From positions 1-56,616 of the forward strand of contig CAMNRM010000033.1 of the NCBI GenBank assembly GCA_946553025.1: a stretch of DNA of 56,616 nt. Reading direction: 5' to 3'. Made by a program: the position numbers and the translations under genes. Below, one piece after another: positions 2,821 to 16,143 of this stretch; position 1 is the stretch's first letter, and every line of letters starts with the position of its first letter. Below the pieces are notes generated by a model. It made no database searches. It was not told where the DNA came from and saw only the letters and a list, made by a program, of their open reading frames with translations. The stretch is from an uncultured Clostridium sp. GTDB taxonomy: Bacteria > Bacillota > Clostridia > Lachnospirales > Lachnospiraceae.

Positions 2821-4041
2821 ATGTCAAGAAAAGATAACAGGGGCAGGGTGTTGCATAAGGGTGAGAGCCAGAGGAACGATGGACGTTATGTTTTTCGGTA
2901 TGTAGAGAAAGGGGGGAAGACACATTCGATTTATGCAAAGACGTTAAAGGAGCTGCGGGAGAAGGAAAAGGAGAGAACCAAGGCAGAGTTGACCGGTATT
3001 AAATACCACGACGGCAATCGTTTAACGCTAAATGATGTTTTTGACGATTATATCCAGCTTAAGGTAGGGTTAAAGGAAAGTACAAGGGTGAATTACACCT
3101 ACACCTATAATTTCCATATCCGAAACGGTCTGGGGCAGAGGGCGGTGAATGATATTCGTTATTCGGATGTAAAGGGGTTTTATTTAAGTTTGATTAAAAA
3201 TGGGATGAAGGTCAGCACATTGACCACTATCCATAATATCCTGCACCCGGTTTTGCAGCTGGCAGTTAGAAACAGTTATATTTCCAATAATCCCAGCGAT
3301 GAGGTGATGTCTGAGATTAAGAAGGATACCAATTGGGAGGTTCCGAAAAAACATGCGCTTACGGTAGAGGAGCAGCAGGCGTTTATGAATTTTGTAAAAA
3401 ATTCCAAGCGGCATCGGCGCTGGCTGAATCTGTTTATTTTTTTCCTTGGAACCGGGTGCAGGGTAGGGGAAGTTACGGGGCTGACCTGGGAGAATATTGA
3501 TTTTAAAAATAGTTTAATTTCTATTGAAAATAACCTGACTTACATCCGAAAAGCCGACGGAACCTTTGATTTTCACATGGGAACGCCAAAGACAAGGGCC
3601 GGAAAGAGGAAGATTCCAATGCTTCCGGAGGTGCGGAAGGTTCTGCTGGAAGAAAAGGAGAAGCAGTTTAAGGGCAAAAAATGCAAGGCTGAGATCGGCG
3701 GGTACAGCAATTTTGTTTTTATCAATGATAACGCTAAACCTCATGTTTTTCAGGTGATTAATAAAGCTATTAAGCGAATTATTAAGGCGCATAACCAGAA
3801 AGAGCAGGAGCTTGCAGAGCAGGAGGGAAGAGAGCCCCTGCTGATAAGGGATTTCAGCGTACATACGTTTCGGCATACATTTTGTACAAGACTCTGTGAA
3901 AATGAAACCAATGTAAAGGTCATTCAGGAGATTATGGGTCATGCAGATATTAAAACGACCATGGATGTCTATGCTGAAGTATCGAACAGTAAGAAGCAGG
4001 AAGTTTTCCATAGTCTGGAAGGAAAACTGAAAATCTGCTGA
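2821..4041 (+). CDS. Tyrosine-type site-specific integrase (Tn916 Int family), orphan
   Basis: This 406-residue recombinase should cut and rejoin DNA at att sites. The first ~60 residues match the Arm DNA-binding domain of Tn916-like integrases (RDNRGR..KGESQRNDGRYVFRY). A SAM-like core-binding domain spans ~65-160. The catalytic domain ends with Arg ~214 (CRVGEVTGL), the HTFRH box near 347-351, GHADI near 374 and nucleophile Tyr384 (DVYAEV), so the active site looks intact. The ATG follows a strong GGAGAGGGAG site. There is no excisionase, relaxase or phage gene nearby, so this is not a complete element. It is flanked by similar tandem repeats (2696-2720 and 4091-4117) and sits head to head with a surface-protein gene missing its 5' end. 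A role in rearranging that gene is possible but unproven. Confidence 0.92.
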   Translation: MSRKDNRGRVLHKGESQRNDGRYVFRYVEKGGKTHSIYAKTLKELREKEKERTKAELTGIKYHDGNRLTLNDVFDDYIQLKVGLKESTRVNYTYTYNFHIRNGLGQRAVNDIRYSDVKGFYLSLIKNGMKVSTLTTIHNILHPVLQLAVRNSYISNNPSDEVMSEIKKDTNWEVPKKHALTVEEQQAFMNFVKNSKRHRRWLNLFIFFLGTGCRVGEVTGLTWENIDFKNSLISIENNLTYIRKADGTFDFHMGTPKTRAGKRKIPMLPEVRKVLLEEKEKQFKGKKCKAEIGGYSNFVFINDNAKPHVFQVINKAIKRIIKAHNQKEQELAEQEGREPLLIRDFSVHTFRHTFCTRLCENETNVKVIQEIMGHADIKTTMDVYAEVSNSKKQEVFHSLEGKLKIC

Positions 4042-6138: not shown

Positions 6139-8022
6139 CTACTTCGTCAAAACCGAAACTCCCGTATCCTGAACCTTACCGCCAAGGGATTCGCCCTCTA
6201 ATGCCTGAACGGCTGCTTTTACGCCTTCTTTGCCCATAACATCCGGGTTCTGTGCCATGGTGCAGAGCAGGTAGCCGTCGTTAATCAGGTTCATGATGGC
6301 GTCGGATTTATCAAAGCCTACGCCGATGATATCGGACTTGCCGGAAGCCTTGATGGCGTTTCCTGTACCGGTGGTGGAGCCTTCATTACATCCGAAGATT
6401 CCTACAACACCCTGGGTAATATAGTTCTCGGCGATGGTCTGGGATTTTGCAGCGTCGCCTTCGCCGTACTGGGTTTCCATCAGTTCAAAGTCGCTTCCTT
6501 CAAATGCGGAGCGGAATCCGGCTTCTCTCTTTACGGTGGAATCGGTAGCTGCATTGACATTGACAATACCAATCTTTCCGGAGGTGATTCCCGCGTCGGA
6601 TAAGGCTTTGATCATCTCTTCGCCTGCGGTCTTTCCGGCGGCTTCGTTGTCGGTGGAGAAGGTTGCTTCTGCGTCAACATTGGCCGGGGAGTCTACATAG
6701 ACAATCTTAATTCCGGAAGATGCTGCTTCCTTCAGTGCGGAGGAGATGGCGTCCGGGCCGTTTGCAGCCACGATAATGGCCTGATAACCGCCGGCAACGG
6801 CATTGTTCACACACTCAATCTGCTGTGCGTCGTCCTTGGTGTTGGGCGACATAAAGGTTACGGTTACGCCAAGTTCCTTTGCCATTTCCTGTGCGCCCTC
6901 ATTTAAGGTAACCCAGTGCTGGTCGATGGAGTCCATGGTGATTAACGCAATTTTCCATTCTTTGCTTGCGGTTACATCGCTGCCTGCTGCCTGTGCTGCT
7001 TCACCGGAACCGGAGGAAGCGCCGCCTGCTTTGATGGCAGATACGCCGGTATCGGTAACTTTTCCGCCCAGGGACTCGCCGTTTAATGCAGCTACAGCTG
7101 CCTTCACGCCTTCTTCACCCATAACATCCGGGTTCTGTGCCATGGTGCAGAGTAAGAATCCGTCTTCAATCAGTCCTAAAATCGCATCGGATTTATCAAA
7201 GCCTACGCCGATGATATCGGATTTGCCGGAAGCCTTGATGGCATTTCCTGTACCGGTGGTGGAGCCTTCATTACATCCAAAGATTCCAACTACGCCCTGC
7301 GTAATATAGTTCTCGGCAATGGTCTGCGATTTTGCAGCGTCGCCTTCGCCGTACTGGGTTTCCATCAGTTCAAAGTCGCTTCCTTCAAATGCGGAGCGGA
7401 ATCCGGCTTCTCTCTTTACGGTGGAATCGGTAGCTGCATTGACATTGACAATACCAATCTTTCCGGAGGTGATTCCCGCGTCGGATAAGGCTTTGATCAT
7501 CTCTTCGCCTGCGGTCTTTCCGGCGGCTTCGTTGTCGGTGGAGAAGGTTGCTTCTGCGTCAACATTGGCCGGGGAGTCTACATAGACAATCTTAATTCCG
7601 GAAGATGCTGCTTCCTTCAGTGCGGAGGAGATGGCGTCCGGGCCGTTTGCAGCCACGATAATGGCCTGATAACCGCCGGCAACGGCATTGTTCACACACT
7701 CAATCTGCTGTGCGTCGTCCTTGGTGTTGGGCGACATAAAGGTTACGGTTACGCCCAGGTCTTTTGCTGCCTTCTGCGCACCTTCATTTAAGGTAACCCA
7801 GTGCTGGTCGATGGAATCCATGGTAATCAGGGCAATCTTGGTATCGCCGGAAGCTGCCTTTTCCTCGGCCTTGGTTTCTTCTTCCTTTGTGTCGGCTTCG
7901 GCCTGTGTGCTTTCTGCCGGGGCTGCTGCTGATTCGGCTGGCTTATTTCCGCCGCCGCAGCCGGTCAGTGATGCGGTAAGAAGTGCCGCACAGGTCAACA
8001 GTGCAAATAACTTTTTCTTCAT
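6139..8022 (-). CDS. Sugar ABC transporter substrate-binding lipoprotein with two tandem binding domains
   Basis: This 627-residue lipoprotein should deliver a sugar to the adjacent permease. Residues 1-22 are a lipoprotein signal peptide ending LTGC (lipid-bearing Cys22), followed by an Ala/Glu-rich linker. Two RbsB-like periplasmic-binding (Peripla_BP_4) domains follow at ~60-345 and ~355-625; family members normally have one. The domains are nearly identical in protein, and 428 nt are identical in DNA (6443-6870 and 7328-7755, offset 885 nt), so the duplication is recent or kept uniform by gene conversion. The junction is a Gly/Ser/Ala linker. The start has a strong AAAGGAGG site. It is last in the unit kinase-ATPase-permease-binding protein, 142 nt after the permease. 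The sugar (ribose, allose, galactose or other) cannot be told from sequence. Confidence 0.93.
   Translation of the reverse strand: MKKKLFALLTCAALLTASLTGCGGGNKPAESAAAPAESTQAEADTKEEETKAEEKAASGDTKIALITMDSIDQHWVTLNEGAQKAAKDLGVTVTFMSPNTKDDAQQIECVNNAVAGGYQAIIVAANGPDAISSALKEAASSGIKIVYVDSPANVDAEATFSTDNEAAGKTAGEEMIKALSDAGITSGKIGIVNVNAATDSTVKREAGFRSAFEGSDFELMETQYGEGDAAKSQTIAENYITQGVVGIFGCNEGSTTGTGNAIKASGKSDIIGVGFDKSDAILGLIEDGFLLCTMAQNPDVMGEEGVKAAVAALNGESLGGKVTDTGVSAIKAGGASSGSGEAAQAAGSDVTASKEWKIALITMDSIDQHWVTLNEGAQEMAKELGVTVTFMSPNTKDDAQQIECVNNAVAGGYQAIIVAANGPDAISSALKEAASSGIKIVYVDSPANVDAEATFSTDNEAAGKTAGEEMIKALSDAGITSGKIGIVNVNAATDSTVKREAGFRSAFEGSDFELMETQYGEGDAAKSQTIAENYITQGVVGIFGCNEGSTTGTGNAIKASGKSDIIGVGFDKSDAIMNLINDGYLLCTMAQNPDVMGKEGVKAAVQALEGESLGGKVQDTGVSVLTK
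6443..6870 (-). repeat. Identical 428-nt block, copy in domain 2 of the binding protein
   Basis: By eye it is base-for-base identical to 7328-7755, with divergence starting abruptly at both ends. It is part of an 885-nt (295-residue) in-frame tandem duplication. Confidence 0.9.
7328..7755 (-). repeat. Identical 428-nt block, copy in domain 1 of the binding protein
   Basis: Partner of 6443-6870. The sequence outside the block differs at scattered synonymous and non-synonymous positions, so the two halves are not a simple assembly duplication. Confidence 0.9.
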
Positions 8023-8164: not shown

Positions 8165-9178
8165 TTAAGCTTTTTTCTTTCCCAGATTCCCCGACCGGAT
8201 AACCACATCCAAAAGTACGGAGAAGACTACGATTATACCGATAACCAGACGCTGGATACCTACCTGTGCGCCGATCATGTTCAGGCCGTTTTCCAGGGTC
8301 TGCCATACGGCTGCCCCGGCAAAGGTTCCTAAAAGAAGACCGGTTCCGCCAAGCGGGGAGATTCCGCCGATAACGCCGGCTGCCACGCCGTACATCTCAT
8401 ACATATTTCCGGCTTCCATATTTCCCATACCGGCCTGTGCGCAGAGGATGAATCCGACGACGCAGGCGCAGACGGCACTGACCAGATAAGCCTTAATGGT
8501 GGTCGATACGACGTTGACACCGGAAAGCTTGGCGGCATCGACGTTCGATCCGATAGCGTAAATATGACGGCCCATCCTTGTCTTGGAGAGCAAGAAGAAG
8601 AACACAAGGAAGAGTACCAGGGCAATCCAGAAGGTGTTGAAAATGCCAAAGGTTTTTCCGTAGTAGAAGAAGTTCTGGAAGGCGTCGCCTGCTTCTTTTC
8701 CGATTCCTGTGGCAATGGCGTCGGTATTGCGGTTATTATTGACCATGTAGGCCGCGCCGCGGGTTACGAACATGGTTCCCAGTGTGGCAATAAACGGCGG
8801 CAGCTTAAATTTTCCGACTAAGAATCCGTTGACCACGCCGCATAAGAGGCAGCAGGCCATAGCCACAGCCATAGCCACAACCGGAGTGATGCCCATGGTC
8901 ATCAGCGTGGCGGAAATCATTGCGCTCATTCCGACCATGGAACCGATGGAAAGGTCGATATTTCCCGTGATCAGCAGGTAGCTCTGTCCCACGCCGATCA
9001 GCAGGTACTTGGACATGGAACGCAGAAGGTTCATCACGTTCTGTCCGGAAAATACATTGCTGTCAATAATGCCAAAGGCAATATAGATAATGATCAGCCC
9101 GGCAAAGGCAGTGATTACCGCCCCCATCCCCCGGGTATTTAACAGCCGTTTTACGGCGCTCTGCTTTGATTCTTTCAT
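8165..9178 (-). CDS. Sugar ABC transporter permease (RbsC family)
   Basis: A 337-residue, very hydrophobic protein of the BPD_transp_2 family, which forms the membrane channel of ribose/galactose-type importers. About eight to ten membrane segments are visible, with the family loop GSMVGMSAMISATLMTMG near residues 75-95 and GGISPLGGTGLLLGTFAGAA near 265-290. The ATG follows GGGGAGGAAAAAGAG. It lies 15 nt after the ATPase gene and is presumably co-translated; partners are the ATPase (9194-10699) and the two-domain binding protein. Confidence 0.93.
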   Translation of the reverse strand: MKESKQSAVKRLLNTRGMGAVITAFAGLIIIYIAFGIIDSNVFSGQNVMNLLRSMSKYLLIGVGQSYLLITGNIDLSIGSMVGMSAMISATLMTMGITPVVAMAVAMACCLLCGVVNGFLVGKFKLPPFIATLGTMFVTRGAAYMVNNNRNTDAIATGIGKEAGDAFQNFFYYGKTFGIFNTFWIALVLFLVFFFLLSKTRMGRHIYAIGSNVDAAKLSGVNVVSTTIKAYLVSAVCACVVGFILCAQAGMGNMEAGNMYEMYGVAAGVIGGISPLGGTGLLLGTFAGAAVWQTLENGLNMIGAQVGIQRLVIGIIVVFSVLLDVVIRSGNLGKKKA

Positions 9179-9193
9179 CTCTTTTTCCTCCCC

Positions 9194-10699
9194 TTAACCG
9201 GCCTGTTTCTTTTCAAATTCGGTTGCATATTTTAAGACTTCGTTCTGGGTGGTTTCCTTTGCCATAACTTCTCCGGTGATCCTTCCGTCGCACATCACAA
9301 TTACCCGGTCGGCGATGCCAAGGACTTCCGGCATTTCCGAGGAAACAAACATTACGGCAATTCCCTGCTGCTTTAACTGGTTCATCAGATGGTAGATTTC
9401 CACCTTTGCGCCGACGTCGATACCCCTGGTCGGTTCGTCGAAAATCACGACCCGGGAGTTTCTTGCCAGCCATTTCCCGACCACGACCTTCTGCTGGTTT
9501 CCGCCGGAGAGGTTTGCTGCGTTAATCTCCACATTGGGCGTTTTAATCATTAAATTCGACACGGCTTTTTCGCAGAGTTCGTCTTCTTTTTTGCTGTTAA
9601 TGACCCCGAGTGCACTGCAGACCAGATCGAGGTTGGGAAGCGAGAGATTGTGCCGGATGCTTAACTTGGTGCAAAGACCGTCCTTTTTCCGATCCTCCGG
9701 TGCCAGTACGATTCCGGCCTTAATCGCGTCCATCGGGCAGTGAATCGTGACTTCCTTGCCGTCGAGGATGATTTTTCCGCTGGTTTTTGGGTCAACCCCG
9801 AAGATGGCCCGGGTGGTTTCCGTCCGCCCTGCACCCATCAGCCCGGCAAAGCCGACAATCTCACCTTCATATAAAGAAAAGTTAATATCGCGCACCAGCT
9901 TTCCGGCATTCAGCCCCGAAACCTCAAAAATCTTCTTTCCCTTGGGACATTCCACCCGGGGGAACTGTTCCTTGATTTCCCGGCCGACCATGTTGGCAAT
10001 AATCTGATCCATCGTCATCTCGGCAAAAATGCCGTCGGTGATGTACTGGCCGTCCCGCATAATCGTTACCCGATCCACGATCGCCTTTAATTCCTCTAAG
10101 CGGTGCGAGATATAGACGATTCCGCAGCCGTCGGCTTTTAACTTGCGGATAATCCGGAAAAGCTCTTCGATCTCCTTGGCCGTCAGGGAGGAGGTCGGTT
10201 CGTCCATAATTAAGATTTTTGCGTGGATGGAGAGTGCCTTGGCAATCTCAACCATCTGCTGCTTGGAAACCGGCAGATCGCCCACCATCTGGCGGGGGTC
10301 GAGATCAATTTTTAATTCGCTTAATATGCCGGCGGCTTCTTCTTCCATCTCCCGGTCTTTTAATACCACACCGCCGACCTTTTCCCGTCCCAGAAACATA
10401 TTTTCCGCGACCGAGAGATGGCGGCACATGTTCAGCTCCTGGTGGATAATGGCAACGCCGACTTCCTGGGCTTGTTTGGGCGTCAGGCTTTCATAGTCTT
10501 TCCCAAAGATCGTCATCGAGCCGCCGTCCTTGGTGTAAACGCCGCTTAAAATCTTCATCAGCGTGGACTTTCCCGCGCCGTTTTCGCCCAGAAGCGCCAT
10601 AACCTCTCCCGAGCGAAGTTCAAAATTTACCCGGTCAAGAGCTTTTACGCCAGGGAAATTTTTAACGATTTCCTTCATGGATACAATGACTTCTCCCAT
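9194..10699 (-). CDS. Sugar ABC transporter ATP-binding protein (RbsA/MglA family)
   Basis: 501 residues with two ABC cassettes, typical of ribose/galactose importers. Cassette 1 has Walker A GENGAGKST (~36-44), a signature region DLPVSKQQMVEIAKAL and Walker B ILIMDEPTSSL. Cassette 2 has the usual family variation in Walker A (GLMGAGRTE), with intact signature LSGGNQQKV and Walker B VVIFDEPTRGID. It should energise import through the permease at 8165-9178. The start is ATG behind GGGGAAGGA with short spacing. This fully normal paralogue contrasts with the degenerate RbsA-like protein encoded at 14698-16143. Confidence 0.95.
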   Translation of the reverse strand: MGEVIVSMKEIVKNFPGVKALDRVNFELRSGEVMALLGENGAGKSTLMKILSGVYTKDGGSMTIFGKDYESLTPKQAQEVGVAIIHQELNMCRHLSVAENMFLGREKVGGVVLKDREMEEEAAGILSELKIDLDPRQMVGDLPVSKQQMVEIAKALSIHAKILIMDEPTSSLTAKEIEELFRIIRKLKADGCGIVYISHRLEELKAIVDRVTIMRDGQYITDGIFAEMTMDQIIANMVGREIKEQFPRVECPKGKKIFEVSGLNAGKLVRDINFSLYEGEIVGFAGLMGAGRTETTRAIFGVDPKTSGKIILDGKEVTIHCPMDAIKAGIVLAPEDRKKDGLCTKLSIRHNLSLPNLDLVCSALGVINSKKEDELCEKAVSNLMIKTPNVEINAANLSGGNQQKVVVGKWLARNSRVVIFDEPTRGIDVGAKVEIYHLMNQLKQQGIAVMFVSSEMPEVLGIADRVIVMCDGRITGEVMAKETTQNEVLKYATEFEKKQAG

Positions 10700-10840: not shown

Positions 10841-11725
10841 TTACGGTAAATCCGGATGCAAACCTGTATGCATGGCGACGCTGAGTGCGGCGATATCACC
10901 GATGGCATCCCCGAGTTTTGCAGGAAGAATCTGACAGGCTGCCAGGTTTTTTTCCAGTGTTTCTTTTTTAAGAACCTTCTGCATCTCCTCTTCCATAAAC
11001 CGTCCTGCCCTTGCATAGATGCTGCCGATAATGATTCTCTCCGGGTTGAATAAATCGATAAGAAGCGATAAAAGTCTTCCCAGATAGTTTCCCGTATCCG
11101 CCCAGAGTTTTAAAGCTTCTTCGTCCCCGGCGGCTGCCCGCAGGGCAAGTTCCTTTGCGCTACCCCTTCCGTACTGGGCAATGCCGCCTCCGCTGCAGTA
11201 GCCCTCGTAGGACCCGGCCTTCCCGTAACCTGTGTGTCCGTCCGGAAAGAGCCTGAGATGACCGGCTTCCCCGGCCATGCCGCAGCTTCCGGTGTAGAGT
11301 TTTCCGTTTAAGATGAGTCCCGCTCCAAGCCCTGTTCCAAAGGTTAAAAAGATCATGTGAGAGCATCCCCTTCCGGCACCGAAGCGCCACTCGGCAAGGG
11401 CACAGGCATCGGCATCATTTTGCAGGTAAGCGGGTACGTGAAAGGCTTCGCTTAACTTTCGGGTAATCGGAACATCATCCCAGCCCGGAAGATTTGGCGG
11501 CGACAGAATCCTTCCGTTTTCCTGATCCAGAGGACCGCCGCAGCTGACGCCGATGGAAAGCACCTGTTTTGTCCAGAGAGTTCTTACACCGGAAAAAATT
11601 TCTTCCAGTGTTTCTTTGCAGCTCCTGGTGGGAAAGGCAAGCTTTTCTAAAATCCTTCCCCTTTCATCCCCGCGGACAACGGCGCATTTCGTTCCGCCGA
11701 TATCGATTCCTATGTATTCCTTCAT
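10841..11725 (-). CDS. ROK-family sugar kinase
   Basis: A 294-residue ROK (repressor-ORF-kinase) protein that probably phosphorylates the imported sugar. Visible motifs are the phosphate loop GIDIGGTK at residues 5-12, the catalytic segment LQNDADACALAEW with its Asp, and GTGLGAGLI. No N-terminal helix-turn-helix, so it is a kinase rather than a repressor. The usual zinc motif CxCGxxGCxE is absent; the same place reads YGKAGSYEGYCSGGG. The start is set at the second ATG, giving the family-like MKEYIGIDIGG; an ATG nine bases upstream is also possible. First gene of the leftward sugar unit and divergent from the two-component system. Confidence 0.85.
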   Translation of the reverse strand: MKEYIGIDIGGTKCAVVRGDERGRILEKLAFPTRSCKETLEEIFSGVRTLWTKQVLSIGVSCGGPLDQENGRILSPPNLPGWDDVPITRKLSEAFHVPAYLQNDADACALAEWRFGAGRGCSHMIFLTFGTGLGAGLILNGKLYTGSCGMAGEAGHLRLFPDGHTGYGKAGSYEGYCSGGGIAQYGRGSAKELALRAAAGDEEALKLWADTGNYLGRLLSLLIDLFNPERIIIGSIYARAGRFMEEEMQKVLKKETLEKNLAACQILPAKLGDAIGDIAALSVAMHTGLHPDLP

Positions 11726-11782
11726 TTCACCCATCTCCGCTGCAGTTTGACCATGTATAAAGCAAAAATTTAAGATAGTCTT

Positions 11783-11811
11783 AGTATATCATAACAAAAA
11801 ATATCCTTTAA
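11783..11811 (-). promoter_or_regulatory. Putative promoter of the sugar-transport unit
   Basis: On the reverse strand TTAAAG, 17 bp, TATACT. The weak -35 suggests that an activator, plausibly the divergent AraC-type regulator, is needed. Confidence 0.45.
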
Positions 11812-11850
11812 GGGGGTATTCTTTCGGTTAATGTAGACAATCTTTTGATT

Positions 11851-11879
11851 TTGACTTCTGTCTGTAAATCTGTTATACT
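11851..11879 (+). promoter_or_regulatory. Promoter of the two-component system
   Basis: TTGACT, 17-bp spacer, TATACT: five of six matches in each box, about 110 bp before the response-regulator start. Confidence 0.65.
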
Positions 11880-11989
11880 ACTTTTTAAATGTTCTGTTGT
11901 TTTTGGGGGATAATTGTAATTGAAAACATTTTACCATGAACGCATGTGAACCGCGGCACGGAAACAAAAAAGGTTGGGTGAAAAACAGG

Positions 11990-13594
11990 ATGATTAAGGT
12001 ATTGATTGCTGACGATGAACAAAAGATCTGCCAGCTGATTGAAAAGCTGGTGGACTGGCCGGGGCTTCAAATGCAGGTGGCCGGTACGGCGGCGAATGGT
12101 CTGGAGGCTCTGGAGAAAATACAGTCCCTGCACCCGGATATCGTGATTACGGATATCCGTATGCCGGGGTATGACGGGCTGGAACTGATTCGTCTGAGTA
12201 AGGAATACTGTCCGAAAACGGAGTTTATTATTATCAGCGGCTACCGGCATTTTGAGTATGCCCAGACCGCGATCCGCTACGGCGTCCACGCCTATATTTT
12301 AAAGCCTATTAAAAAGGATGAACTGACGCAAACCCTGCGCAAGCTGGGCGAGAAATTTCAGGAAAATACGGCGAGAGAAATCAGCGAAGAGCAGTTAAAG
12401 CAGACCTTAAACACGGATAAGCAGACCCTGCGCCGGACATTTTTTTCGGATTTTATTGCCCGACGCAGCCGGGAGCGCTTATCCTGGCCGACGGAAAAGA
12501 TTAATCAGGAGTTTCGCTATGCATTTTCTTTGGGGGAATTCTGCATTGCCGTGCTGAAGATGGACGGGCGAGTGTTTGACCAGCCAAAAAACCAGGCGTT
12601 TATGGCGGATAAGGTGGAAAATGCCGCAGCGCGTCTTTTTAAGGATCTGGTAAATGACTATGAACTTCTGTTTTTTGGAGGGTTTTACTATTTCCTTTTT
12701 CAGATGCAGCCGGAGCACCGGGCGGGAGTCCGCAGGCAGATGAAGCTTCTTTTGGATGAGCTTCGGGTGCAGGGAGATATTTTGCAGGATTTTGCCGTTA
12801 CGGCTGCCTTGGGGAAGGGCTGCGAAAAACTTTCGGACCTGGAAGCTTCTTTAGATAACGCCCGGCAGAATATCGAAGAGCGGCTGGTTCTGGGTACGGG
12901 GAAGCTTTACGAGAATGAATTTCCGGAAAATATGCCGGTGAAGTTTACCGAATTTACTGAGTTTGGACGTCAGTTTTCGCAGGCTTTGGAAACGCTGGAG
13001 GTATTCCCTGTCCGCGAGGTTCTTCTTAAATTAAAAGCGCAGGTTCTGGCGGCAGAGGGGATTTCGGGACATGAACTTTTGCATGTGGCAGAGGAGGTTA
13101 TCAGCCTTTATCGGTTCTCGATGAAGAATTTTCAGATTCCGCTGGAGGAGGATGTCCAGGGAAAGCTTTCCACGGGAACCAGAAACTGTGCGTCGGCTGG
13201 CGAATTGTTTGATTATCTTATCCGTGAAGTCACGGTTTCCTATGAGAAGGCGGCAGTAAAGAAGCGTCAGAAGGAAAACCGGCCCATCCGCGTCGTCAAG
13301 CAGTTTATTGCCGCGCATTACCAGGAAGCAATAACTTTAGAGCAGGTTAGTGCGGCAGCCGGGCTTTCTCCTGCCTATTTCAGCACCGTGTTTAAAAAGG
13401 ATACGGGAATGACGTTTCTGGAATACCTCTCGGGCGTGCGCATGGATGCGGCCAAGCATCTGTTAAAGGAAACGAACCGGACGGTTGCGGATATCTGTGC
13501 GGCTGTGGGCTACAGTGATGTGCGCTATTTTACGAAATCATTTACCAAATACTCCGGATTAAAGCCAAACGAGTATAGAAAGCTGTATTCATGA
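11990..13594 (+). CDS. YesN-type response regulator with AraC-family DNA-binding domain
   Basis: 534 residues. The receiver domain is at 1-120, with acidic pair Asp8/Asp9, phospho-acceptor Asp55 (DIVITDIRMPG) and Lys near 105 (LKPIKK). A ~290-residue middle region follows, and the C-terminal ~100 residues are a double helix-turn-helix AraC domain (LEQVSAAAGLSPAYFSTVFK ... DICAAVGYSDVRYFTKSF). Such regulators activate sugar-uptake operons when phosphorylated by the partner kinase, here the next gene, whose ATG overlaps the stop codon (ATGA). The start is chosen as MIKVLIADDE; a GTG at 11978 is an alternative. The obvious target is the divergent sugar-transport promoter. Confidence 0.92.
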   Translation: MIKVLIADDEQKICQLIEKLVDWPGLQMQVAGTAANGLEALEKIQSLHPDIVITDIRMPGYDGLELIRLSKEYCPKTEFIIISGYRHFEYAQTAIRYGVHAYILKPIKKDELTQTLRKLGEKFQENTAREISEEQLKQTLNTDKQTLRRTFFSDFIARRSRERLSWPTEKINQEFRYAFSLGEFCIAVLKMDGRVFDQPKNQAFMADKVENAAARLFKDLVNDYELLFFGGFYYFLFQMQPEHRAGVRRQMKLLLDELRVQGDILQDFAVTAALGKGCEKLSDLEASLDNARQNIEERLVLGTGKLYENEFPENMPVKFTEFTEFGRQFSQALETLEVFPVREVLLKLKAQVLAAEGISGHELLHVAEEVISLYRFSMKNFQIPLEEDVQGKLSTGTRNCASAGELFDYLIREVTVSYEKAAVKKRQKENRPIRVVKQFIAAHYQEAITLEQVSAAAGLSPAYFSTVFKKDTGMTFLEYLSGVRMDAAKHLLKETNRTVADICAAVGYSDVRYFTKSFTKYSGLKPNEYRKLYS

Positions 13595-14685
13595 AAGAAC
13601 TGATAAAAACCAAACTGCACTATCTTTCCCGGCGTCTGTTTTTGTGTGCCTGCGCGGGTCTTGTGCTGCTCGTTCTTTATCTGGGGCTGTGCTGGAAGCT
13701 GTGTGCAGCGGCGCAGGCAGGCCCTGTTCCTCTCCTTTTTGCGGCGGCAGCGGCTGTGGGCTACATCCTGCTGATCCTTCGCCTGGTTGTCCGCCCCTAC
13801 CAGGAAACAAGAAAAATTTACGAGCAGTTTGCCATGGGCTACGTGCTGAATGACTTTTTCCACCAGCCGCATCCCCTTACTCCGGAGAGCGAGCTTGCCA
13901 TTGCGCGGCTGGATGAAATTATTGACCGGAACAACCTGATCCATCATTCCAAAAAGCAGGCAGAATACCTGGCGCTGCAGAACCAGATTAATCCGCATTT
14001 TCTCTACAATACCCTGGAGGGCATTAGGAGTGAGGCTTTGATTGCGGGGCTTGACAGTGTGGCGGAGATGACGGAGGCCCTGGCGACGTTTTTCCGCTAT
14101 ACGATTTCTCAGGTGGAAAACCTGGTGACCCTGGAAGACGAGCTTGCCAATATTGAAAACTACTATTACATCCAGCAGTTTCGCTTCGGCGATAAACTGG
14201 GGCTGCGCATTGAATATGCCCTGGATGATGCCGGCGATGAATGGGACGATTCCGGCAGTGAAGCAGCGCAGACGGAAGAAATGGACTGCGCCGTCACGCA
14301 TCTGGACGTTCTTTCCTGCCGCCTGCCCAAGCTTACTTTACAGCCCATTGTCGAAAACGCTATCTATCATGGTATCGAGAGGAAGACCGATAAGGGGAAT
14401 CTGGTGATCCGCATTGAGGTAAGCGATCTCTGTCTTCGTATCCGTGTTTCGGACGACGGACTGGGGATGGATGAGCGGACACTGTGCCAGCTTAATGAAA
14501 AGCTGCGGCGGCTGACCCTGGATGAGGAAACGCCGCCTCCGGGAAAACGGGGCGGGATTGCCCTGATGAATGTCAATAACCGGATTAAGCTTTTGTTTGG
14601 TGAAAACTACGGACTGGCGGTTTACAGCAGGGAAGGCGTGGGAACCGATGTGGTGGTTTCGCTTCCCCTGATCCGGGAATCCTAA
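13591..14685 (+). CDS. YesM-type sensor histidine kinase without extracellular sensor domain
   Basis: 364 residues. Two membrane segments (~11-33 and ~39-61) are separated by only a handful of residues, so there is no room for the large extracytoplasmic sensor usual in YesM kinases. A short HAMP-like stretch is followed by the His_kinase domain with phospho-acceptor His136 (NQINPHFLYNTLEGIR), the N box LQPIVENAIYHGI and the G boxes DDGLGMD and GGIALMNVNNR. It should autophosphorylate and pass phosphate to the regulator encoded by the preceding, overlapping gene. An acidic insert of ~20 residues (DDAGDEWDDSGSE) interrupts the region before the N box. How it senses a signal is unclear; the next gene is a candidate adaptor. 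Confidence 0.9.
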   Translation: MKELIKTKLHYLSRRLFLCACAGLVLLVLYLGLCWKLCAAAQAGPVPLLFAAAAAVGYILLILRLVVRPYQETRKIYEQFAMGYVLNDFFHQPHPLTPESELAIARLDEIIDRNNLIHHSKKQAEYLALQNQINPHFLYNTLEGIRSEALIAGLDSVAEMTEALATFFRYTISQVENLVTLEDELANIENYYYIQQFRFGDKLGLRIEYALDDAGDEWDDSGSEAAQTEEMDCAVTHLDVLSCRLPKLTLQPIVENAIYHGIERKTDKGNLVIRIEVSDLCLRIRVSDDGLGMDERTLCQLNEKLRRLTLDEETPPPGKRGGIALMNVNNRIKLLFGENYGLAVYSREGVGTDVVVSLPLIRES

Positions 14686-14697
14686 AGGACATCGAAA

Positions 14698-16143
14698 ATG
14701 AAACGTGAACTTTTATGCATCGATCATGTCAGTTTAATAAAAAACGGGGAAACCTGGCTGGATAACCTGAATTTCCAGATGTTTGCCGGGGAGATTATGG
14801 GGCTGGTATCCCAAAGCAATAAGGGCCATGATCAGCTGATTGATTTAATCTGCTACAACCGTCCGATTTCTTTTGGGCGGGTGTGGTACAACGGGCGGAT
14901 TGTGAACCGCTATTCGTTCAGCGACAACAGCAGCAACCGGGTTGCCGTTATCGAGCAGCAGAGCCATCTGGTCGAGGATTTAAGCGTTGCCGATAATGTT
15001 TTCGTTCTCCGGGAGGGATTTAAGAAGTATCTGATTCAGGAGAGGGTGCTTCGGGAACAGGCGGAGCGGTTTTTTGCGGAAAACGGTATTTCTGTCAGCC
15101 TGCACAAGCGGGTGTTTGCGCTGACTCCCTTAGAGCGCAGCCTGGTGGAACTGGGAAAGGCGCTGTTAATGGGATGCCGCCTGCTGATTGTGGATAACCC
15201 CGGCAATTTCCTCAGCCAGACAGAGTTAAATGAGTTTCAGCACCGTTTGCGGGAGGTGAAAAAGCAGGGGATTTCCGTTTTATACATCGGCAACCATCAC
15301 CAGGAGGTGTTCCGCATTGCCGACAGGACTTCACTGTTCTCCAACGGTCGGATTATCAAGGTTTTTGAACAGGATGAGATGACCGATGAGAAGATGGCAC
15401 CTTATATTACGGAATGGTTCGTTCCCAAGGCAAAAAATGAACAGGAAACCTCGGAGGGTGCCCTGCATTTTCATCATGTATGCACCGAAAACCTTGATCA
15501 CCTGCGCTTTAATCTTCACCGGGGGGAATGTCTGACCCTTCTGGATATGGATAACCGGATTGCGGGGGATATCCTTGATCTGCTGACCGGGGCACTGCGC
15601 GGGACGTCCGGCTGGATTACCCTGGAACACCAGCACTATCAGCCGCAGACTATCGGCGACTGCCTGGACGCCGGGATTGCCATTATCCCCAAGAATCCAG
15701 TGGAAAACCTGCTTTTTGAGCACCGCAGCTACATGGAAAACCTGACGTTTTTTGTGGATCGGAAGCTGAAAAAAACCATTGTTCCGGAAAAAATCTACCG
15801 CAGCATCCGCAGGGAATTTGCCCCCGTGATTGGCCCGGCTTTGGATGAAGCATCGGTGGAAAACCTTCCCTTTATCGAAAAGCTTGCCCTGGTCTATTAC
15901 CGTATGCAGCTGTTAAATCCCCGCGTCCTTGTCTGCGTTCAGCCGCTGGCCCGGGGGGATATGTTTGTGCGGATGAAGATCCTGACCCTGCTTCGGCAGA
16001 TATTAAAGATGGGAACGGCGGTGCTGATTATCACGGCAAATATCTCCGATACCCTGGAGATTTCTGATCGGCTGATGGTGATTGAACACGGGCGCTGTGC
16101 GGCTTCTTATGATAAAACGGAGTTTGGGAAGCTGGACTGGTGA
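14698..16143 (+). CDS. Degenerate RbsA-like double ABC protein, predicted unable to hydrolyse ATP
   Basis: 481 residues with the length and two-cassette layout of sugar-ABC ATPases, but all catalytic motifs are decayed. The cassette 1 Walker A site reads GLVSQSNKGHDQLIDL (no GKS/T), the signature reads LTPLERSLVELGKALL, and Walker B ends IVDNP instead of DEP. The cassette 2 P-loop reads LLDMDNRIAGD, the signature position reads NLPFIEKLALVYYRM, and Walker B ends CVQP. The frame is intact, with no stops or shifts over 1.4 kb, so it looks selected for something other than ATP hydrolysis. It starts 12 nt after the sensorless kinase and is surely co-transcribed. Inference: a regulatory adaptor that binds the sugar permease or kinase and relays transport state. 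No further function is recognised. Confidence 0.82.
   Translation: MKRELLCIDHVSLIKNGETWLDNLNFQMFAGEIMGLVSQSNKGHDQLIDLICYNRPISFGRVWYNGRIVNRYSFSDNSSNRVAVIEQQSHLVEDLSVADNVFVLREGFKKYLIQERVLREQAERFFAENGISVSLHKRVFALTPLERSLVELGKALLMGCRLLIVDNPGNFLSQTELNEFQHRLREVKKQGISVLYIGNHHQEVFRIADRTSLFSNGRIIKVFEQDEMTDEKMAPYITEWFVPKAKNEQETSEGALHFHHVCTENLDHLRFNLHRGECLTLLDMDNRIAGDILDLLTGALRGTSGWITLEHQHYQPQTIGDCLDAGIAIIPKNPVENLLFEHRSYMENLTFFVDRKLKKTIVPEKIYRSIRREFAPVIGPALDEASVENLPFIEKLALVYYRMQLLNPRVLVCVQPLARGDMFVRMKILTLLRQILKMGTAVLIITANISDTLEISDRLMVIEHGRCAASYDKTEFGKLDW

Follow-up and report, generated by a model that had tools for sequence, protein, structure and literature searches.

Transporter-coupled kinases and the locus under study

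Several two-component systems are known in which a transporter, or a part borrowed from one, provides the input of a histidine kinase (HK). In the Bce modules (BceAB-BceS/BceR), a sensor-less kinase with two transmembrane (TM) segments is coupled to an ABC transporter, which it controls (PMC10314905, PMC7828314, PMC8534201). In UhpABC-UhpT, the transporter homologue UhpC senses for the kinase UhpB, which switches on the real transporter (PMC7607045). XylFII-LytS and CuaDSR use a binding protein as third component (PMC10384115), and in KsAmt5 (PMC8534201), as likewise in CbrA, a transporter fold serves as kinase input. None of these systems is described as using a dead ATPase subunit. The locus considered here lies in a stretch of 56,616 nucleotides from an uncultured Clostridium sp. 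of the Lachnospiraceae (contig CAMNRM010000033.1, assembly GCA_946553025.1), referred to below as the window. It encodes a YesN-type response regulator (RR), a YesM-type kinase that lacks an extracellular domain, and a degenerate ("dead") homologue of the sugar-importer ATPase RbsA. Judged from sequence, the dead protein is very likely a dedicated partner of the sensorless kinase. The same pairing recurs in many gut bacteria, which suggests that a dead motor protein has become the kinase's sensor. The genes and segments concerned are as follows.

11990..13594, forward strand: YesN-type response regulator, 534 aa (receiver and AraC helix-turn-helix; Pfam Response_reg and AraC HTH)
13591..14685, forward strand: sensorless YesM-type histidine kinase, 364 aa (Pfam His_kinase PF06580 and HATPase_c)
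13633..13698, forward strand: TM helix 1 of the kinase, approximate, placed by eye on the alignment
13729..13794, forward strand: TM helix 2 of the kinase, approximate, about 10 residues past TM helix 1, placed by eye on the alignment
14698..16143, forward strand: degenerate two-cassette RbsA homologue, 481 aa (Pfam, NCBIfam, alignments)
14707..14718, forward strand: residues 4-7 of the RbsA homologue, with E4 and R7 conserved in the dead family
14947..15012, forward strand: residues 84-105, Q-loop/ENx segment of its first nucleotide-binding domain (NBD1), with N100 kept in 85%
15679..15756, forward strand: residues 328-353, the counterpart segment in NBD2, with N348

The open reading frames (ORFs), their lengths and their spacing are as the first-pass annotation gave them. 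The RR gene, for which a longer ORF opens at 11936, shares 4 nt with the kinase gene, and 12 nt separate the kinase stop (14685) from the ATG of the RbsA homologue (14698). The kinase adjoins a receiver-AraC regulator and carries His_kinase and HATPase domains, which places it in the YesM type; these are its only Pfam domains, and its N-terminus is too short for an extracellular domain. That annotation had also described two TM segments with almost no loop between them, and the AlphaFold helices at residues 2-41 and 46-90 agree with it (mean pLDDT 57; 70-77 across residues 11-60). The juxtamembrane motifs of the kinase family are kept, YLSxR preceding the first TM segment and P-Y past the second. 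What we take to be the H-box (His136) and the N- and G-boxes are present. YesM kinases usually, although not universally, have an extracellular sensing domain.

The window kinase resembles that of the Bce modules in having two TM segments and no sensor domain. The Bce partner, as described, is BceAB itself with a functional ATPase, whereas the ABC protein linked to the kinase here is a dead homologue of RbsA and separate from the live importer; moreover, the window system combines a His_kinase/YesM kinase with an AraC-type regulator and a sugar-type (RbsABC) importer, and has no live BceAB partner. UhpC is described as a membrane MFS protein, whereas the homologue recruited here is a soluble ATPase subunit. 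XylFII-LytS and CuaDSR share with this locus a YesN/AraC regulator, a membrane kinase and, as accessory protein, a part taken over from an adjacent ABC importer (PMC10384115). In those systems, as described, a dedicated binding protein contacts the extracellular domain of the kinase, whereas the kinase here has lost that domain and it is a cytoplasmic ATPase that has been borrowed. KsAmt5 and CbrA, as described, are membrane permease folds and not dead ATPases. A search of the open-licence literature (titles and starts of abstracts) found no description of a two-component kinase that has a dead ABC ATPase as its partner, and the pairing appears to be undescribed. The conserved dead-RbsA family and this proposed form of transporter-coupled two-component sensing thus appear to be new.

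The dead RbsA family and its linkage to short kinases

Searched with a profile of 21 dead-linked kinases, 133 of 397 genomes in the window's family matched at 1e-60, ordinary long YesM kinases included; by a hand count among the matches listed, short kinases of the dead-linked group occur in at least about 60 genomes. Sixty HK-led loci were taken from the matches listed, 40 picked mainly by score (loci already in hand were skipped) and 20 more; 19 further short-frame matches and at least G046 lie outside this sample. A degenerate RbsA was found in 59 of the 60 loci, in 55 of them within 150 nt of the kinase on the same strand. In the 60th (L165), the kinase (residues 26-368) and one dead cassette (residues 400-614, 105 bits) form a single ORF of 616 aa at 8418-10268, next to a regulator ORF of 253 aa; the genome concerned is assembled in two contigs. 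Among 20 control loci of kinases with a long N-terminus, none has a degenerate RbsA and 14 have a live one (Fisher p = 6e-18 for HK-led loci against controls, the loci not being fully independent). "Dead" denotes a protein with no LSGG and fewer than two DEP[TA] motifs and "live" the reverse, so that counts of signature and Walker B motifs partly restate the definition. The independent fact is the class of the RbsA-like gene nearest the kinase, which is dead in 59 of the 60 HK-led loci and live in all 14 controls that have such a gene. A1-led loci gave the same linkage in 19 of the 19 that hold a kinase gene (17 within 150 nt), the 20th (L046) ending with its contig.

The length of the kinase N-terminus follows the same division. 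In 96 of 97 dead-linked kinases 49-192 residues precede the H-box (median 127), as against 284-431 in the controls (19 of 20 with the motif found). Three of the 60 HK-led loci have long open frames: the L165 fusion (G178), L173 (G104), whose kinase has 354 aa by our own ORF call, and L215 (G133). A degenerate RbsA accompanies one of 21 kinases with a long N-terminus, that of L215. Within one kinase family, an extracellular sensor and a dead ATPase thus look mutually exclusive, with this single exception. Four kinases (L157, L160, L170 and L171) have no TM segment in a hydropathy scan, of which, its windows overlapping and its TM counts being crude, only zero-TM cases and N-terminal lengths were used; the input can therefore reach a kinase by a way other than its own membrane segments.

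On the control side, an SBP-like (substrate-binding protein) gene directly follows the long YesM kinase in 7 of 20 loci (L196, L200, L203-L206, L212). This fits SBP-type sensing, and these seven loci, next to RbsABC, are candidate SBP-sensing three-component systems.

The 481-aa protein of the window has the two tandem cassettes and, with roughly 500 aa, the size of RbsA/CUT2 ATPases. Pfam finds ABC_tran in one stretch at 49 bits, as against 173 for the live neighbour, and NCBIfam recognises it as XylG/RbsA-like over its whole length at 163/153 bits, against cut-offs of 699/745; the live neighbour itself, with 589 bits, is below the RbsA cut-off of 745. Motifs were read on alignments with that neighbour, whose second site is non-canonical (NBD1 signature LPVSKQQ, NBD2 P-loop GLMGAGRTE). 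In comparison, the canonical site of the 481-aa protein is without its Walker A Lys-Ser, its catalytic Walker B Glu and its LSGG, and most of the other site has gone as well; read in this way, the protein has lost the one canonical site plus a remnant of the second. The claim that P-loops, signatures and both Walker B acidic pairs were gone therefore stands for the most part, but loss of the whole pair holds for NBD2 only, since the NBD1 Walker B (LLIVDNPG) retains D166 and has only its Glu replaced, by Asn. The AlphaFold model of the protein has a pLDDT of 64.6, with residues 1-80 unreliable, and its best Foldseek matches are two-cassette and single ABC ATPases, the first being DppD (8wd9_D) with a TM-score of 0.42.

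A scan of GTDB species genomes with this single protein gave 12 loci, of which 10 are true relatives at 64-69% identity; L011 and L012, with partial matches of 25-26%, were left out. The genomes of the ten are titled Lachnospiraceae, Clostridiaceae or unplaced bacteria. In all ten the frame is open, the motif loss recurs and the order RR-HK-dead gene is kept, with a mean column identity of 80%; live RbsA and permease genes lie downstream in nine, and the tenth stops at a contig end. In three close pairs, dead gene and kinase each have a dN/dS of 0.04-0.11, and in two of these pairs the regulator has one of 0.05-0.08; in the more distant pair of the window and L001 the values are 0.13, 0.15 and 0.16, respectively, with synonymous sites near saturation in some pairs. 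The first-pass annotation had asked whether degenerate motifs and linkage to sensorless kinases are conserved among homologues, and both are, in the ten relatives and in 59 of the 60 HK-led loci. Homologues that were scattered or riddled with frameshifts, which it had named as evidence of decay, are not what was found. Two loci are broken: in L054 the kinase is split into two ORFs beside an intact dead gene, and L134 has a truncated dead gene and a split RR.

Beyond the close relatives, a profile of the window protein and these ten matched in 21 of 397 genomes of the window's family at E <= 1e-80, the window's own included. A broader profile matched in 34 of 392 genomes of the order at 1e-65 and in 66 of 398 of the phylum at 1e-60, most of them low-scoring; 14 matches in 13 of the 392 reach 425 bits and 7 of the 398 reach 572 bits, and the window's genome is in both sets. 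Seven matches below 300 bits were inspected and comprised five live RbsAs (L183, L190-L193) and two degenerate proteins (L182, L170); a score cut-off therefore misses some members. Live RbsA is present in 18 of 20, 47 of 60 and 12 of 16 loci of three wider sets. The last of these, set D, is 16 of 20 loci: L190-L193 were dropped, the profile match being the live RbsA, and L183, a live RbsA without HK, was kept.

Motifs were counted in 97 of 107 loci (the window, L001-L010, L046-L065, L134-L173 with L214-L233, and L174-L189). The ten set aside are L046 and L183, with no HK in the stretch, and L134, L165, L167, L219, L226, L227, L228 and L231, in which the degenerate protein is truncated, half-size, fused or cut by a contig end. 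The 97 degenerate proteins are 442-561 aa long. The first glycine of the NBD2 signature is kept in 2 of them and the NBD2 Walker B Asp in 1, whereas none of the 84 live partners or the 14 control RbsAs departs from the canonical residue at any of the 13 positions read. Catalytic columns have lost more conservation than the remaining fold (ratio 0.42 vs 0.63, p = 4e-14). The dead family has also gained constraints of its own, since E4 and R7 are kept in 96% and 91% of 74 non-redundant dead members and are not conserved in live RbsA, and the 97 aligned dead proteins all share N348. At position 7 the window protein has Cys.

In a tree built from 88 degenerate, 76 live and 14 control proteins, a branch with an SH-aLRT of 99 sets the degenerate ones apart. 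The tree uses 88 of the 97 dead proteins (thinned) and a quick method, and its inner order is unsure because of many long branches. Nearest the live side stand L215, then L161, L162, L169 and L173, all with P-loop, and L222 without; the remaining P-loop members (L148, L170, L172, L214, L221) are elsewhere in the degenerate part. The tree fits a single descent from a live RbsA that adjoined a YesM kinase with a sensor, and a loss of hydrolysis first and of the P-loop later, perhaps several times. The live partners are spread over several clades, among control importers; the sensory pair has therefore been combined with different importers.

Some genomes have four or five modules, mostly with different importers: G038 (L056, L137, L152, L170, L216), G340 (L050, L147, L151, L226, L229) and G208 (L058, L142, L163, L218). 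Half-size degenerate cassettes with NBD1 only (218-254 aa) occur in like regulator loci (L226, L227, L231, L228). In L226 and L227 the cassette adjoins the RR, which lies between it and the kinase, and in L228 it is followed by a fragment with LSGG and DEP.

Routes by which the dead protein could inform the kinase

The first-pass annotation had proposed an adaptor that reports transport to the kinase. The part that holds is the dedicated kinase partner, because of the 59 linked loci and one fusion against none in 20 controls; the mechanism is a proposal. Gene linkage and the L165 fusion argue strongly that kinase and dead protein are in physical contact. To a three-component sensory system, with the dead RbsA-like protein as input subunit, we give an even chance. 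In the likeliest form of such a system the sugar-loaded binding protein would dock on the Rbs-type permease. The dead protein would sit on the permease dimer, replacing the live ATPase or beside it, or on an assembly of permease and kinase, and its ATP-independent cassettes would relay the conformational change of the permease to the kinase dimer. The kinase would phosphorylate the YesN regulator, which would then switch the importer operon; the direction of the signal and the target promoter are assumed from the gene arrangement. What is sensed may be flux, occupancy or a cytosolic ligand, the flux reporting of the first-pass annotation being one of these three versions.

Docking of the dead protein on the permease stands at about even. 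The permease, which is present in most loci, would be the simplest membrane route, because the two-cassette form is kept and the permease-facing segments are no worse kept than the rest; the NBD1 Q-loop/ENx segment is the permease-facing part in live ABC proteins. Several observations weigh against the relay from permease to kinase. Conservation of the permease-facing segments does not significantly exceed that of the remaining fold (0.71 vs 0.63, p = 0.18), and across 82 loci the groove of the dead protein does not track its own live partner (NBD1 0.274 vs 0.275 for others; NBD2 0.205 vs 0.209). Special conservation of the docking groove and dead-live resemblance within a locus were accordingly rejected as proofs of docking. 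Mirror-tree partial correlations in the same number of loci are 0.49 for dead-RR, 0.23 for dead-live, 0.21 for dead-HK and 0.09 for dead-permease, so the regulator shows the clearest co-evolution. The ideas originally put forward, that the dead protein docks on the sugar permease or competes with the live ATPase and reports transport flux, are hypotheses. At thirteen of the 60 HK-led loci, several of which stop at a contig end, the stretch shows no live RbsA of full length, and the 19 kb of L171 show no part of an importer. In L215 a kinase with an extracellular domain occurs together with a degenerate RbsA; 355 residues precede the H-box of this kinase and about 219 lie between its TM segments, and its partner is mildly degenerate with an intact P-loop. 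The Lys and Ser/Thr of the NBD1 P-loop are kept in 17 of 97 dead proteins and the whole GX4GK[ST] in 11; nucleotide binding may therefore matter in part of the family. Finally, the figure of 59 in 60 comes from a profile made with dead-linked kinases, and loci of one genome are not independent, so that relatives of these kinases are favoured in the sample.

The members with a whole NBD1 P-loop and without the full NBD2 signature and Walker B are L147, L148, L161, L162, L169, L170, L172, L173, L214, L215 and L221. Judged from their motifs, they are possibly ATP-binding, non-hydrolysing relays.

A bolder form of the permease route is a class of pseudo-transporter receptors widespread in Clostridia-type bacteria. 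The dead RbsA would there occupy the ATPase's seat, the permease would be a non-transporting sugar receptor and the kinase dimer would rest on the dead cassettes. We hold this tentatively and would sooner doubt it than accept it. In the fusion, with one cassette per kinase chain, the kinase dimer would itself supply the two cassettes that the permease dimer needs.

A serious rival, because the direct docking tests were negative or weak, is that the dead protein, though partner to the kinase, senses a metabolite in the cytosol through a vestigial nucleotide or sugar-phosphate pocket, the permease being uninvolved. The TM-less kinases, the members with a whole P-loop and the weak permease co-evolution point this way. 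In addition, none of the other four parts diverges as fast as the dead protein (mean identity 0.25 vs 0.42 for HK), as might be the case for a ligand-facing module. However, 80 of the 97 lack the P-loop Lys with Ser/Thr, the site residues differ among members, and the protein retains the two-cassette build of a permease motor. On balance a cytosolic sensor is unlikely, without being far-fetched. It is more doubtful still that the dead protein sits on the TM hairpins of the kinase as on a permease and relays to or clamps the kinase, the sugar signal coming through the TM region or the binding protein. The kept YLSxR and P-Y motifs, the adjacency and the fusion agree with such an arrangement, but the dead protein still adjoins kinases without TM segments. 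A role in transport instead of signalling, with the dead protein as a poison or spare subunit in the place of the live ATPase or paired with it, would suit the RbsA architecture and the importer linked in most loci. The dead protein, however, travels with the kinase and not with the importer (it is absent from all 20 controls, 14 of which have live RbsA), it is fused to a kinase in L165, and the live partners are scattered among control importers, which makes this role improbable. A decaying duplicate of the neighbouring rbsA kept by chance, as the motif loss and the two broken modules might hint, is in effect refuted by dN/dS (0.04-0.13 for the dead gene, like 0.04-0.15 for the kinase), by open frames in all ten relatives and by one separate branch in place of local duplicates.

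If the relay through dead cassettes is correct, it shows a motor protein converted into a signal relay and explains the input of a large set of sensorless kinases in Lachnospiraceae-type gut bacteria. It also makes flux and occupancy sensing testable against each other, because the predicted relay is not expected to hydrolyse ATP. Such systems may be recognised by a short YesM kinase adjoining an RbsA without LSGG. Databases presumably label the dead genes as sugar-transport ATPases, a label that would mislead for the 97 full-length members examined.

Importer and neighbouring genes

The RR-HK-dead genes are divergent from a ROK gene and the RbsABC importer genes.

11735..11935: intergenic region separating the divergent units
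10841..11734, reverse strand: ROK-family protein (Pfam)
9194..10699, reverse strand: live RbsA-type ATPase, 501 aa (Pfam, NCBIfam, alignment)
8165..9178, reverse strand: RbsC-type permease, BPD_transp_2 (Pfam, NCBIfam)
6139..8022, reverse strand: sugar-binding protein of 627 aa, two fused near-identical binding domains (Pfam)

A promoter-like TTGACT-17-TATACT lies at 11851-11879 on the forward strand between the divergent units, and in a promoter and terminator scan of the intergenic region the number of promoter-like sites was at chance level. The importer had been described as normal, which it is except for the binding protein, a tandem double. The same doubling occurs at L001, L003, L006-L008, L058-L060, L063, L175, L180 and L181, with halves 83-96% identical in the 13 doubled proteins, and the binding protein is a single copy at other loci. 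A two-headed binding protein adjoining a dead-RbsA sensory system looks unusual. An 847-aa ORF with a TTG start at 40-2583 of the window (reverse strand) gave no match in a Pfam search. A Tn916-type integrase is encoded near the cluster, at 2821-4041.

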